DNA of 35,249 nucleotides from Phycisphaerales bacterium (GTDB lineage Bacteria; Planctomycetota; Phycisphaerae; Phycisphaerales; UBA1924): assembly GCA_013360675.1 (NCBI GenBank), contig JABWBB010000030.1, positions 1-35,249 of the forward strand, given 5' to 3'. Positions 9,741-25,364 of the stretch are shown piece after piece (position 1 is the first letter of the stretch; every line of letters starts with the position of its first letter). The translations under genes were made by a program, and so were the position numbers. The notes under the pieces were generated by a model. It made no database searches, was not told where the DNA came from, and saw nothing but the letters and a program-made list of their open reading frames with translations.

Positions 9741-9883
9741 GGCCTTGCTCTGCGATGTGAAGTGAGTCGGCGAGGCGGCGCGACCAGAAGACGGCGGCGC
9801 ACCTGCCGGTCTCCCTTCGCCCGTGGCATGGGCCCGGCGTGCAACGCCTTCCCATCGCCGCGGGCCCGCGAGGGGCCGCCAGC

Positions 9884-10118
9884 ACGTCGTCGGCAGGTCT
9901 TCCGGCTTCGGGCTCCGCTGGCGTGGCCTTCCCAATCTTGTCGCTCCCGACACGCGTCGGAATCCGATTCGATCAGTGGCCGGGAGGCTCGTCGTGGCCT
10001 CCCTCAACGCTCAACATCAGCACCCGTTACGGCGGCGCGTCCGCGGTGGCATTTCACCACGCTTCCCTGTTTCACCCGGAGCCCCCGGCCACGAATACGC
10101 CGAAAACTCCGAGCACCG
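9884..10118 (-). ncRNA. Cobalamin (B12) riboswitch
   Basis: On the minus strand the hallmark elements occur in order. The 5' part reads ACAGGGAAGCGTGGTGAAAT, matching the conserved AGGGAA...GGTGAAA block, followed by GCCACCGCGGACGCGCCGCC then GTAACGG, the equivalent of the GC...CCCGCnACTGTnA block. After an expanded variable region comes the B12 box GAAGCCGGAAGACCTGCC at 9892-9909, differing from the consensus at one or two positions. Such aptamers bind adenosyl- or hydroxocobalamin and switch off genes for B12 uptake or synthesis. The ends are approximate. The gene controlled is the PEP-CTERM-like protein at 9683, and probably the propeller gene after it. Confidence 0.93.
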
Positions 10119-10129
10119 ATGACGCATTC

Positions 10130-10157
10130 AGCCTAGCAAACCACGCCCGTGTGTCAA
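10130..10157 (-). promoter_or_regulatory. Predicted sigma-70-type promoter of the B12-riboswitch transcript
   Basis: A perfect -35 box TTGACA (minus strand, 10152-10157) is separated by 16 bases from TAGGCT (10130-10135) as a weaker -10 box. The predicted start at about 10123 is a few bases before the first recognisable riboswitch nucleotides, so position and orientation agree with the aptamer. Confidence 0.55.
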
Positions 10158-17572: not shown

Positions 17573-19621
17573 TCACACGACCCGGTCCTCCTTCGCAATC
17601 CCCAGCGCCGGGCGCACATCCACCTGCACCACCACCGCGCCTGTCTTTTCGCGGTGCAGGCGCTTGGCCTCTTCGGGGTCGACATAATCACTGTGACAGG
17701 TGGCCTTTTCGCCCTGCTTATCCGCGCCAACGGCCTTCTTGGTCTTGCTCGCCAACTTATGAATCTCATCGGGCGAGAGCACGCCGCGCTTGGCCAGGAT
17801 CTCTTGCTGTTCGGGGGTGAGGGCCGCGCTCTTGACGGGCGCCCCGGCCTTGCCGCCGGCCCCGACGCGCTCAAACCCCTCGGCCTTGCCGCTGGCGAAC
17901 TCTTGGATCTCCTTGCTGATGCGCACGCTGCACCAGTCGTGCCCGCACATGGCGCAGAAGTCGGTGTCCACATCAAGGTCTTCGTCGTGATACGCCCGTG
18001 CCGTGTCGGGGTCGAACGACAGCTCAAAGTGCTTCTGCCAGTTCAGGGCGGCACGTGCCTTGGTCAACTCATCATCGCGGTCGCGCGTGCCGGGGATGCC
18101 CAGCGCAACGTCCGCAGCGTGGGCCGCGATCTTGTACGCGATGCAACCCTGCTTCACGTCGTCCTTCTTGGGCAGGCCCAGGTGCTCCTTGGGCGTGACG
18201 TAGCACAGCATCGCCGCCCCGTGATAGGCCATCGCCGTTGCGCCGATGCAACTGGTGATGTGGTCATACCCGGGGAACATGTCCGTCACCAGCGGGCCCA
18301 GCACATAGAACGGCGCGCCGTGGCAGAGCGTCCGCTGCACCTTGGCGTTCCACTCGATCTGATCAAACGGCACGTGCCCGGGCCCCTCGATCATCACCTG
18401 CACGCCCTTGCGCCACGCCCGCTCGGTCAACTCACCCAGCGTTTCGAGTTCGGCGATCTGGGCGGCGTCGGTCGCGTCGGCCAGCCCGCCCGGGCGCAGC
18501 CCGTCGCCGATGCTGAACGTCACGTCGCTCTCGCGCAAGATGTCGCAGATGTCCTCCCAGCGTTCATACATGATGTTCTCGCGGCTGTGCACGAGCATCC
18601 ACTTGGCCAGCAGCGACCCGCCACGCGAGACGATCCCGATCAACCGGTTCTTCACATACTTCAGGTGCCCCCGCCGCACGCCCGCGTGGATCGTGAAGTA
18701 ATCGACCCCCTGCGACGCCTGGCGGCGCAGCCCCTCGTCGATCGTCGCCCAGTCCAGGTCATCGATCTTCTTGCCGATGATCATCGAATAGATCGGCACC
18801 GTGCCGATGGGCACCGTGCTGTGGCGGCAGAACGCCGCACGGCATTCGTCCAGGTTCCCGCCCGTGCTCAGGTCCATCACCGTGTCCGCGCCCCAGCGCA
18901 CGGCCCAGTCGAGTTTCTCGAGTTCCTCGTGCGTGCCGCTGCTCACGGGGCTCGCCCCCATGTTCGCGTTCACCTTGGTCAGGCTCGCCCGCCCGATCGC
19001 CATCGGGTCGAGACGATGCGTCAGGTGGTTCACGTTCGCCGGGATCACCATCCGCCCCGCGGCGACCTCATCCCGCACCGCCGCCGCACCCTGCCCCGGG
19101 AAGAGCACATCAAAGTGCGGCTCGCGCTGGGCCACGCGCGCCATCTGCGGCGTCACGATCCCCAGGCGCGCACACTCGAGTTGCGTCACCGGCGCAAAGC
19201 CCTTGGGATAGATCACCCGCACGCGGCGCGCCATTCCATCCGCCCCCGCGGCGTAGGAAAACTCGACGAACTCGCGCGCATCGCCCAGGCAACTCGTGCA
19301 CCCCTCGCCCTTGGCCGCGGGGAACGCACGCGAGCAGGCGTGCGGCACGTGCGGGTTGGCGCTGCGCACGTCGCCCGACCAGGGGCCCGCCTCGCCCACG
19401 CCAAGATCGACCACGCTCCACCCCTCGGGCAGAAAGTCCCACGCGGTCTTGTCGCTGGGTGGCGGCATGCCGGGCGTGTCGGGGCTGCTGAACGTGCGCG
19501 GCCCGCCGATGTTGGGCGCGTTGGCGAACGAGCCGGGCGTGGTGACGCCGCTCGTGGTGCCGGGGTTGCGGGCGCCGTGAGTGGGGGCGCGAAAACGGTT
19601 GTGGGTCGAAGCCTGCGTCAT
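17573..19621 (-). CDS. thiC: Phosphomethylpyrimidine synthase ThiC
   Basis: Radical-SAM enzyme that converts aminoimidazole ribotide to hydroxymethylpyrimidine phosphate in thiamine synthesis. 682 residues. Characteristic stretches are [69 protein letters not shown] and the atypical C-terminal [4Fe-4S] motif C556-x2-C559-x4-C564 (CAMCGHDWC). About 118 residues follow the cluster, more than in E. coli ThiC. The first 60 residues are a Ser/Thr/Pro-rich leader. The start at 19621 is fixed by GGAGG 8 bases upstream, inside a TPP riboswitch. It is alone on its strand; other thiamine genes are not in the window. Confidence 0.97.
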
Positions 19622-19623
19622 GG

Positions 19624-19711
19624 CGCTTCCCTCCGCCGGTGCGAACCGGTTCAGGTTCAACGGGTGCATCTCAGCGGTCGGCCCCGTGTGGCCGCCGCGC
19701 CCCGAGCGATA
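19624..19711 (-). ncRNA. TPP riboswitch (THI element) of thiC
   Basis: The minus strand carries the conserved parts in order: CTCGGGG at the 5' side, CCGCTGAGATGCACCC, GTTGAACCTGAACCGG and finally CGGAGGGAAG. These match the TPP aptamer (CTGAGA...ACCC...GAACCTGATC...GCGnAGGGAA). The final conserved strand contains GGAGG, the ribosome binding site of thiC, and ends only a few bases before its ATG. TPP binding would therefore hide the ribosome binding site directly, giving translational repression. Confidence 0.95.
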
Positions 19712-19714
19712 CCC

Positions 19715-22946: not shown

Positions 22947-24131
22947 TTACTCAAAGTCCCTTCCCGCCAGCCCTCCAACAGTCGCAAGGCCGGGTACGGG
23001 AATCGATCCGTACGGTCGATTGATCGTGGATTCCGTGAAGGCGTCGGTGACGGGTCGCCGAGACGCTCCTCCATCCATCATTACCACGGCTACTCGGCCA
23101 GGATCTTCCCCACGCCGCCCAGCACCGAAATAGTCCGAAAGCAAGTGCAGGTTCAGCACTTTTTGGGCCGGGAACAGGGCTTCGTGCACTCGGACACTCC
23201 GGTACAACGCCAAGTCTGTCGGCGGCGTTTCGCCACGCCAGTATTCGGGCGCCGCGAACGCCCCTTGCGTCATCCGATACGGAGTCATAAAGTGAACGGA
23301 TTGTCTTGATGACGCGCCGTACTCGCCCGGTTGATCCACGTCTGCGCGCTCCGAGAAATAGGAGGGGTACAGCAGGTTGATGTAATACGCACTCTGTGAG
23401 AAGTAGCTCGCCGGAGCAGGTGTCTGATCCAGGGTCAGACCTCTCCACGGCTCGCCCGCATATCCAAGGTAAGGCAGCGCTTCCCTCCATTCCTCAGCGT
23501 ATGACCACACCGCGGCGTGAAGCTGCCGTAAGGTCGATACCGTGCGTACCTGGCGCGCGCTAATCTTTGAACGGCTGAGCATCGGCAACGCCAGTGCCAG
23601 CAGCACGCCAAATACAACGATCACCACAAGCAACTCCACGAGCGAAAACGCACGCGCCGATTCACTCCCTCCCTCGGTCGGTTCTTCGGCGTGAGCCTCG
23701 CTTTGCTTGCTCCCTTTGATCTCAAACACGAGTAGAAGACTCACACCCAGCAATCCCAGGTTGCGAATTGTCCCCCACCAGGCAGTCGCAATGCCGTCGC
23801 CTGACTCCGCACTTGCATCGCTGACTACTCCCGCGATCATGCCGAGCCGAATAGTGGCTCCGACCAAGATCGCGAAGAAAATGGCGGCCAACATGGCCGA
23901 TACCCGCCGCCATCGCCCCGAGAGAATGACGAACCCTAACGCCCCCTCAACGCACGTGAAGCCCGCCGCGCCGACCAAGAACCACGACGTGCGGCCTGTC
24001 GCCGGCAGCAACCCGTCTATCGCCTCAAGAACTCCCGAGGGATTGATCGCATTGGCCGCAGCGGCCCAGAGCAGCACACCCCCGATCAAGACTCGCGCAA
24101 TCTGTTGCAAGCCTTTACTGCTGGCGGACAT
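22947..24131 (-). CDS. Fusion of a MauE/DoxX-like membrane domain with an internal prepilin-type pseudopilin
   Basis: 394 residues in one frame. Residues 8-137 form a four-helix membrane domain resembling MauE/DoxX proteins (IARVLIGGVLLWAAAANAIN, VEGALGFVILSGRWRR, AMLAAIFFAILVGATIRLG, WWGTIRNLGLLGVSLLLVFE), but without the usual CGCFG redox cysteines. After a hydrophilic linker, ARA161|F162 followed by SLVELLVVIVVFGVLLALAL is a textbook prepilin cleavage site and pilin helix, and the rest is a pseudopilin-like domain with VAVVMMDGGA near the end. The ATG at 24131 has GGAG 8 bases upstream and starts 2 bases after the previous gene. A prepilin signal in mid-protein is unusual; the linker would lie on the cytoplasmic side if both ends of the membrane domain do. 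Confidence 0.8.
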   Translation of the reverse strand: MSASSKGLQQIARVLIGGVLLWAAAANAINPSGVLEAIDGLLPATGRTSWFLVGAAGFTCVEGALGFVILSGRWRRVSAMLAAIFFAILVGATIRLGMIAGVVSDASAESGDGIATAWWGTIRNLGLLGVSLLLVFEIKGSKQSEAHAEEPTEGGSESARAFSLVELLVVIVVFGVLLALALPMLSRSKISARQVRTVSTLRQLHAAVWSYAEEWREALPYLGYAGEPWRGLTLDQTPAPASYFSQSAYYINLLYPSYFSERADVDQPGEYGASSRQSVHFMTPYRMTQGAFAAPEYWRGETPPTDLALYRSVRVHEALFPAQKVLNLHLLSDYFGAGRRGEDPGRVAVVMMDGGASRRPVTDAFTESTINRPYGSIPVPGLATVGGLAGRDFE

Positions 24132-24133
24132 CC

Positions 24134-25009
24134 TCAATACTCCCAGCGTGCGCTCGACATGTCTGCCTTTTCATAGTTGCCGTGGCAGTACCCGTCGATC
24201 CACCACCCTCCCGTTTTAGGGTCTTGGTACATCATCAACTTTGCAGGCCTTCGCTTGCCGTCCACGAAATCGATCACAAAGCCGACCGTAGCCGTCTTCA
24301 CTTTCCCATACTGCGCCATCAACTCGTCGTAACTCACGCCCGGTCGCCACCACGAATGCGAGATCATCAGAGGCCCGCCATAACTGAGCACGTCTCCGAG
24401 CGCGCCGTCTACGGCGGCTCGCCCGGGGTCTGCCCGAGTCGCCGTGCGCACAACGATTCGCAGATCATCGGGCCCGACGCCAACCCCGCTCGGCCTGGTG
24501 CGCCCCTTCTCGAACGCGTCCTGGCCAAGCATCATCTCCGCAAAGACATCGTCCCAGGACGCTCCCGCATCGAGGGGCTTGTCGAGATAGGTGCGATAGG
24601 CGTCGTCAAGAAACCACTGTTTCCGAAGTTCTTCAAGTGGCCGACGCCGGTACCCCTGTTCCTCTCGCCACAGAATGAACTGTGCGGGGTCAGAAGACCT
24701 CCCGAATCGCAAGCCGAGGAACTTCTCGATCGTTGTGCTGATTCTCCTGGCTTCCTCGGATGATAATCCACTGCCCGCCTTTCTGGCGGCTTGATGCAAC
24801 GATTCACGGATCGTGTCCGACTCATCGATCCCCGCCATCGTGGCCCTGGCGATGGATGCCACGCCGCGGGCCCGCAGCACCTCGGCATCGTCTCTCGACG
24901 ACGCGGACTGGCTCATCCGCGCGCCCCTCCAATAGGTCACGCCACCGATGAGCAAGCCCGCAGCAACCACGCCCGCGATCACATTAAGATTGGCACGGCT
25001 GAATCCCAT
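24134..25009 (-). CDS. Membrane-anchored protein of unknown function in the Cys-rich peptide operon
   Basis: 291 residues. A single N-terminal membrane helix (LNVIAGVVAAGLLIGGVTYW) precedes a periplasmic domain of about 260 residues rich in charged residues and tryptophan (FILWREEQGYRRRPLEEL, GGPLMISHSWWRPGVSYDEL, YQDPKTGGWWIDGYCHGNYE). I recognise no family. It begins 10 bases after the Cys-rich mini-protein gene and ends 2 bases before the MauE-prepilin gene, so the three are one operon. Third codon positions are less GC-rich than in most neighbours. A longer in-frame start exists at 25162, but that part overlaps and is antisense-like to the Cys-rich gene region. Confidence 0.75.
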   Translation of the reverse strand: MGFSRANLNVIAGVVAAGLLIGGVTYWRGARMSQSASSRDDAEVLRARGVASIARATMAGIDESDTIRESLHQAARKAGSGLSSEEARRISTTIEKFLGLRFGRSSDPAQFILWREEQGYRRRPLEELRKQWFLDDAYRTYLDKPLDAGASWDDVFAEMMLGQDAFEKGRTRPSGVGVGPDDLRIVVRTATRADPGRAAVDGALGDVLSYGGPLMISHSWWRPGVSYDELMAQYGKVKTATVGFVIDFVDGKRRPAKLMMYQDPKTGGWWIDGYCHGNYEKADMSSARWEY

Positions 25010-25019
25010 GGCATGCTCG

Positions 25020-25307
25020 CTATTGGCACAGCGTGCAAAGACTGCTCCCGCCGCAGTCCGCGCCCGCCATGCACGCCGCGGTGTACACCGCCGGACTCGC
25101 CCCATTGGAGCAGCAGCATCGGGAGTCCCCGGACGGGCACGTGTCATTACCGGCGGCTCCACAACTTGTCAACGAACAATCCCATTTCTTCGGCCCCATG
25201 GCGATGCCTCCCCCACCGCCTACTTCATCAGCATGACTCATGCCGGCACCCGCGACCAACATCGAGAACATCAGACTTGTATTCCAAACGATCTTCTTCA
25301 GTTGCAT
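25020..25307 (-). CDS. Secreted cysteine-rich mini-protein
   Basis: 95 residues. A signal peptide (NTSLMFSMLVAGAGMSHA) is followed by a mature chain of about 68 residues with ten cysteines, including a CCC triplet (SRCCCSNG) and a C-terminal SSLCTLCQ. The even number suggests five disulfides in the periplasm or outside. A glycine run (VGGGGGIAMG) follows the signal peptide. No family recognised; methylamine dehydrogenase small subunits are also Cys-rich and need MauE, but the length and motifs do not fit well. AAAGGAGT lies 5 bases before the ATG. It is the first gene of the operon and sits directly behind the 18-G promoter spacer. Confidence 0.78.
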   Translation of the reverse strand: MQLKKIVWNTSLMFSMLVAGAGMSHADEVGGGGGIAMGPKKWDCSLTSCGAAGNDTCPSGDSRCCCSNGASPAVYTAACMAGADCGGSSLCTLCQ

Positions 25308-25328
25308 TCGTGACTCCTTTAAAAAGTT

Positions 25329-25364
25329 GTTTTAGACTCCCCCCCCCCCCCCCCCCTATGTCAA
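25329..25364 (-). promoter_or_regulatory. Putative length-variable promoter with poly-G spacer
   Basis: Minus strand: perfect -35 TTGACA at 25359-25364, then TA, a run of 18 G, AGTC and TAAAAC (25329-25334), a 4/6 match to -10. The spacer is 24 bases, too long for good sigma-70 activity; TCTAAA at 25331-25336 would give 22. Loss of 5 to 7 G would bring it to 17. The leader from here to the Cys-rich gene contains a good ribosome binding site. Position is seen; activity and switching are inferred. Confidence 0.5.
25339..25356. repeat. Homopolymer tract of 18 C (plus strand)
   Basis: An uninterrupted run of 18 C, the only such tract noticed in the window. Homopolymers of this length slip readily during replication, and are also prone to sequencing or assembly error, so the true length may vary. 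Confidence 0.9.

Follow-up and report, generated by a model that had tools for sequence, protein, structure and literature searches.

To our knowledge, promoter switches that act by slippage in the spacer are known mainly from host-adapted pathogens and from a handful of loci. In these systems, slippage lengthens or shortens a homopolymer tract and, through the spacing of the two boxes, the tract determines how strong the promoter is, according to PMC3899988 (porA) and PMC5320596 (fetA and porA). In the Neisseria meningitidis porA promoter, the spacer between the -35 and -10 boxes contains poly-G (work of van der Ende et al., 1995, described in PMC3899988 and PMC5320596), and that of the Neisseria gonorrhoeae fetA/frpB promoter contains poly-C, with expression set by its length (Carson et al., 2000, as cited in PMC5320596). 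Here we analyzed a tract of 18 G behind a -35 box in a Phycisphaerales bacterium (assembly GCA_013360675.1, contig JABWBB010000030.1), located upstream of an operon for a small cysteine-rich (Cys-rich) peptide. The whole stretch of 35,249 nucleotides (nt) is referred to below as the window. We consider it likely that this run of G forms a spacer of variable length in a sigma-70-type promoter, i.e., a switch of the porA/fetA type that serves a whole regulon of genes for exported proteins. A poly-G spacer switch like that of porA had been proposed in the first-pass annotation, and it is still the best reading because boxes and tract co-occur family-wide, poly-C replaces poly-G, no other strongly conserved motif is found, tractless orthologs are normally spaced (mostly 17 nt), tract promoters are broadly spaced, tract lengths differ between close species of genus g78 and the predicted products are exported.

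The window promoter

A G homopolymer of exactly 18 nt follows a perfect TTGACA upstream of the Cys-rich peptide operon, just as the first-pass annotation had read it (Table 1). Its -10 assignment held up in part: TAAAAC is present at a spacer of 24 nt, but it is one of three candidates, and the spacers of all three exceed the 16-17 nt typical of the family. A shorter tract would be favoured, as had been proposed. The ON length would be approximately 10-15 G, not exactly the 11-13 G calculated for an optimum of 17 nt, because the family optimum is ∼16 nt and the -10 box of the window is uncertain. The TTGACA box reported at the B12 promoter was also found, upstream of a cobalamin riboswitch. 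G/C runs elsewhere in the window are at most 8 nt long, and the count of 9-G matches in the window is higher than in every one of 100 dinucleotide shuffles. In the assembly as a whole (2.92 Mb), only four tracts are 14 nt or longer, and six are 12 nt or longer.

It is very improbable that the run is an artefact, whether as poly-G generated by two-colour Illumina chemistry or through faulty assembly of a homopolymer. Other tracts of the family look artefactual, lying next to Ns or some tens of bases from the end of a contig, and the exact length of 18 is not trustworthy. However, the window tract is ∼9.9 kb from the nearest contig end and stands between a perfect -35 box and a gene with a good Shine-Dalgarno (SD) sequence. 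The same arrangement was present in independent assemblies, including the single-contig H1_PLA1 chromosome CP054186.1 (genome G036, identity checked by sequence), which carries several tract promoters. For the existence of the tract, the assembly artefact that the first-pass annotation had allowed for is thus contradicted.

Tract promoters across the family

The survey covered 163 genomes of the window's family (Phycisphaerales according to the NCBI labels of matching contigs). Many of the unfiltered tracts of G12 or longer that were first listed lay at contig ends or in low-complexity DNA, and the analysis was thus centred on tracts with TTGAC upstream. The pattern TTGAC-N1-7-G10 gave matches in 51 of the 163 genomes, compared with 7 matches in 7 genomes for the reversed control pattern. 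Across the order, TTGACA-N0-6-G11 was found in 32 of 301 genomes, 29/118 in the family and 3/183 in other families (family totals counted from the table); the control was zero. TANNNT occurs no more than 9 nt past the tract end in 88 of 111 non-redundant family promoters (G/C tract of at least 9), vs. 3/152 in a control stretch at +40 nt, and it directly abuts the tract in 35 of 86. Tract lengths in family promoters range from 9 to 24. Poly-C spacers were detected in 11/163 genomes, upstream of the same kinds of genes as poly-G (control zero). A C preceding TTGACA is among the little else conserved around these promoters. A dedicated operator or sigma factor was considered and rejected, as no strongly conserved sequence was found upstream or downstream of the family promoters beyond the -35 box, tract and -10 box. 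Some contigs end ∼10-160 nt from a poly-G promoter (L119, L120 and L121 in genome G002; L096 and L097 in G034), as if the tract or a repeated downstream cassette breaks the assembly there.

In the window's own genome, five of the six tracts of G12 or longer are at spacer positions, the window's included, and the -35 boxes are degenerate at three of these five promoters. Downstream of the five lie the window operon, three genes of a single anchored LolA-like protein family and one gene for a pseudopilin-like protein. Loss of mismatch repair as the cause was considered and rejected, a MutS_V match being present.

Homologs of the Cys-rich peptide with usable upstream DNA were found in eight other genomes, and their spacers were counted by eye on the printed sequence. 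Tract-containing and tractless orthologs both have promoter boxes; therefore, the promoter is conserved and the tract replaces an ordinary spacer. These orthologs also bear on the possibility that the promoter has decayed, the tract having expanded neutrally and the operon being silent or served by another promoter. Such decay would agree with the off-optimal spacing in the assembly and with a consensus scan, limited to spacers of 16-18 nt, that found no sigma-70 promoter for the operon. We regard it as quite improbable, since orthologs in four other genera still carry the tract, all three open reading frames (ORFs) of the operon are intact, the -35 box is perfect and the SD sequence is strong.

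Among 146 listed generic promoters of the family (TTGACA..TATAMT), spacers of 16 nt are the most frequent, with 80% at 15-18 nt and 7% at 19-22 nt. Those of the tract promoters spread over 11-22 nt, with 39% (34/88) at 15-18 nt and 50% (44/88) at 19-22 nt (p about 2e-10 vs. the generic set; the -10 definition is looser for the tract promoters, although the TANNNT abutting the tract leaves no choice in 35/86). Peaks at 16 and 19 nt with few spacers at 17-18 nt were also seen among the tract promoters, a post hoc observation that depends on the -10 call. A spacing of 17-18 nt is usually held to be the strongest.

Three species of genus g78 carry cttgacagatgtac-Gn-tagggtggtg with n = 9, 11, and 9 (spacers of 16, 18, and 16 nt, respectively), with identical flanks and the same gene downstream. 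The comparison of tract length across related genomes suggested in the first-pass annotation thus gives G9/G11/G9 with constant flanks at this related promoter, and G12-G18 with diverged flanks between the window promoter and its orthologs in other genera. Paralog pairs within one genome differ in tract length as well (G12/G11 in G046 and G15/G13 in G036).

Several points weigh against a length-variable switch. The two paralog pairs hold equal total spacers (16/16 and 19/19) despite their differing tracts, 1-2 bases past the tract compensating, which argues for a constraint on the sum and not for free drift. At the window promoter itself the -10 box is ambiguous, its three candidates at 19, 22, and 24 nt all being weak. 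The genomes are consensus assemblies, so that exact tract lengths are uncertain, the length of 18 included. The genome contains a MutS-type gene (MutS_V match), and slippage would therefore have to escape or tolerate mismatch repair. Long G tracts elsewhere do escape or tolerate it.

The equal totals also favour the main rival explanation, a fixed structural or regulatory element: the tract would be a conserved cis-element of this regulon (a protein site, a G-quadruplex, or stiff or A-form DNA); it would adjust how strongly the promoter works and would not serve as a variable region. That the tract marks a coherent gene set across genera fits such an element too. We nevertheless find it unlikely. 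Poly-C takes the place of poly-G at the same position and with the same gene classes, which argues against a strand-specific quadruplex; tractless orthologs have just the two boxes; and tract length varies from 9 to 24 with broad total spacing.

Genes behind the tracts

Among ORFs with ATG and SD sequence behind tract promoters, 71% are Cys-rich and 84% have a hydrophobic N-terminus, vs. 24 and 40% of background ORFs, respectively (a rough contrast, as the background set includes some spurious ORFs). Two main groups emerged from clustering: one consists of pseudopilin-like proteins, the other is a family of ∼370 amino acids (aa). MauE-like proteins (PF07291) and many unrelated proteins rich in Cys are also encoded behind tract promoters. 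Judged by these features, the genes behind tract promoters appear to encode surface or exported products.

The ∼370-aa anchored family (L188, L190, L009; alignment A2) occurs in 63/163 genomes of the family, with three copies in the window's genome, and has no match in Pfam or NCBIfam. Its structure model (predicted local distance difference test score, pLDDT, 85) shows a LolA/LolB/RseB fold plus a C-terminal helix (best Foldseek E 7e-7; Z 11.4 and root-mean-square deviation 6.0 over 218 residues), and the family may be called LolA-like by predicted fold only. A G/C tract of at least 8 was present in 43/86 of its upstream regions, vs. 14/478 random stretches of similar length. Tractless members have TTGACN, mostly 16-18 nt from TANNNT.

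The first product of the window operon (P0001) has no match in Pfam or NCBIfam, and its homologs are found in at least eight other genomes of the family. A structure model of the peptide was of low confidence (mean pLDDT 50) and was not used. Genes resembling the second operon gene, as judged by eye, lie behind P0001 homologs in G004 and G030 (stretches L023 and L022). The third gene (P0003) combines a MauE-like domain and a pilin-like motif in one frame, either a fusion of an unusual kind or two merged genes. The window also contains a thiamine pyrophosphate (TPP) riboswitch.

Table 1. Features of the window, other tract promoters of the same genome, and promoters of orthologs of the Cys-rich peptide
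Feature	Position	Strand	Description
-35 box	25359..25364	-	TTGACA, perfect, read directly; TTGAC is the common anchor of 86 family promoters
G tract in promoter spacer	25339..25356	-	GGGGGGGGGGGGGGGGGG, exactly 18 G, read directly (18 C on the + strand)
-10 region	25329..25339	-	Three candidates: GAGTCT 25339-25334 (spacer 19, abuts tract), TCTAAA 25336-25331 (spacer 22), TAAAAC 25334-25329 (spacer 24); family -10 is TANNNT just past the tract
Ribosome-binding site	25314..25320	-	AAAGGAG, read from sequence
Minus-strand order, -35 to start codon	25364..25307	-	TTGACA (25364-25359) TA GGGGGGGGGGGGGGGGGG (25356-25339) AGTCTAAAAC (25338-25329) AACTTTTT AAAGGAG (25320-25314) TCACGA ATG (25307)
First operon gene (P0001)	25020..25307	-	95-aa secreted-looking Cys-rich protein; N-terminal hydrophobic stretch; ATG 25307
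Second operon gene	24134..25009	-	Likely start ATG 25009 (MGFSRANLNV...); no known domain found
Third operon gene (P0003)	22947..24131	-	MauE-like membrane domain PF07291; type IV pilin-like N-methylation motif PF07963
TPP riboswitch	19611..19714	-	Above Rfam gathering score
Cobalamin riboswitch	9875..10130	-	TTGACA ∼22 nt upstream at 10157-10152
Same-genome tract promoter	C58		TTGACA-G12-AGAT-TACACT
Same-genome tract promoter	C73:36281		TTGAAC-TCA-G17-AGTCTACTCT
Same-genome tract promoter	C73:211061		TTGCGT-T-G13-TATATT
Same-genome tract promoter	C81		TTGCGT-CCT-G14-TAAAGT, spacer 17
Ortholog, tract	G030		TTGACA-ACCTGT-G14-TAGCAT
Ortholog, tract	G004		TTGACT-CT-G12-AC-TACATT
Ortholog, tract	G081		TTGACA-GAAGA-G14-TAGTCT
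Ortholog, interrupted tract	G108		G6-C-G15 then TATATT; -35 poor
Ortholog, tractless	G160		TTGACA-17-TAGATT
Ortholog, tractless	G141		TTGACA-17-TAGTCT
Ortholog, tractless	G088		TAGACA-17-TACAAA
Ortholog, tractless	G028		TTGGCA-21-TACATT

A possible switch and its known relatives

For the spacer switch, what we infer is that tract length slips within a population and that this alters transcription. A sigma-70-type promoter with a variable spacer would drive the Cys-rich-peptide/MauE-pseudopilin operon. Replication slippage would alter the number of G and with it the -35/-10 distance; transcription would rise near 16-17 nt and fall when the boxes lie farther apart or closer together. With its 18 G and a spacer of 19-24 nt, the allele in the assembly would then represent a low, weak or off state. 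The promoter would be one of a set found across the family, with poly-G or poly-C spacers ahead of Cys-rich, pseudopilin, MauE-like and membrane-anchored LolA-like genes, and the combination of exported proteins expressed could differ from cell to cell. We are inclined, though not strongly, to see in this set a multi-locus combinatorial contingency system, in which several independent poly-G/poly-C promoters in a genome would each switch an exported protein of their own, giving many combinations per population. There is no evident host immune system to evade, and such a system would plausibly act against phages or grazers, or serve attachment.

The sequence evidence suggests that in these environmental planctomycetes, as in some pathogens, DNA slippage turns the expression of exported proteins on and off. 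The mechanism is not new; what is new is the group, how many loci there are and the exported-protein regulon. The literature searched yielded no description of phase variation in Phycisphaerae and none of poly-G promoters in planctomycetes. The same device marks recurring exported proteins of unknown function in these organisms, and the combination of tract, TTGACA and TANNNT provides a sequence handle for members of an undescribed regulon. Population heterogeneity becomes testable from existing metagenome reads, with no culture needed, and a single consensus assembly cannot reveal gene expression in these organisms.

Beyond the family, a scan of one genome per species found TTGACA-polyG-TANNNT in at least 117 stretches across many phyla, and this type of spacer switch probably occurs more widely than has been described. 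The Alphaproteobacteria metagenome-assembled genome BRZ_AF bin11 (L194, L238, L266, L305) and Candidatus Ancillula (L204, L215, L221) each have several promoters with a poly-G spacer; some of these promoters have similar flanks with G12 or G13. In Helicobacter, for which a homopolymer survey of H. canadensis is available (PMC2823697), H. bilis and 'H. rappini' have G13 and G14, respectively, within identical 44-nt flanks. These tracts resemble the window's in their TTGACA-NN-polyG-TANNNT anatomy and in the length difference at near-identical loci; Helicobacter belongs to a different phylum, and the comparison covered the promoter sequences. The poly-C spacer variants of the planctomycete family are like fetA/frpB, which, unlike the planctomycete set, is a single gene of a pathogen and was tested by experiment. 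As in porA, a G tract lies between the -35 and -10 boxes of an exported-protein promoter, and tract length sets the spacing. Unlike porA, which was shown experimentally and concerns few loci, the planctomycete set comprises many promoters ahead of several unrelated kinds of genes, in an uncultured environmental family known here from its sequences.
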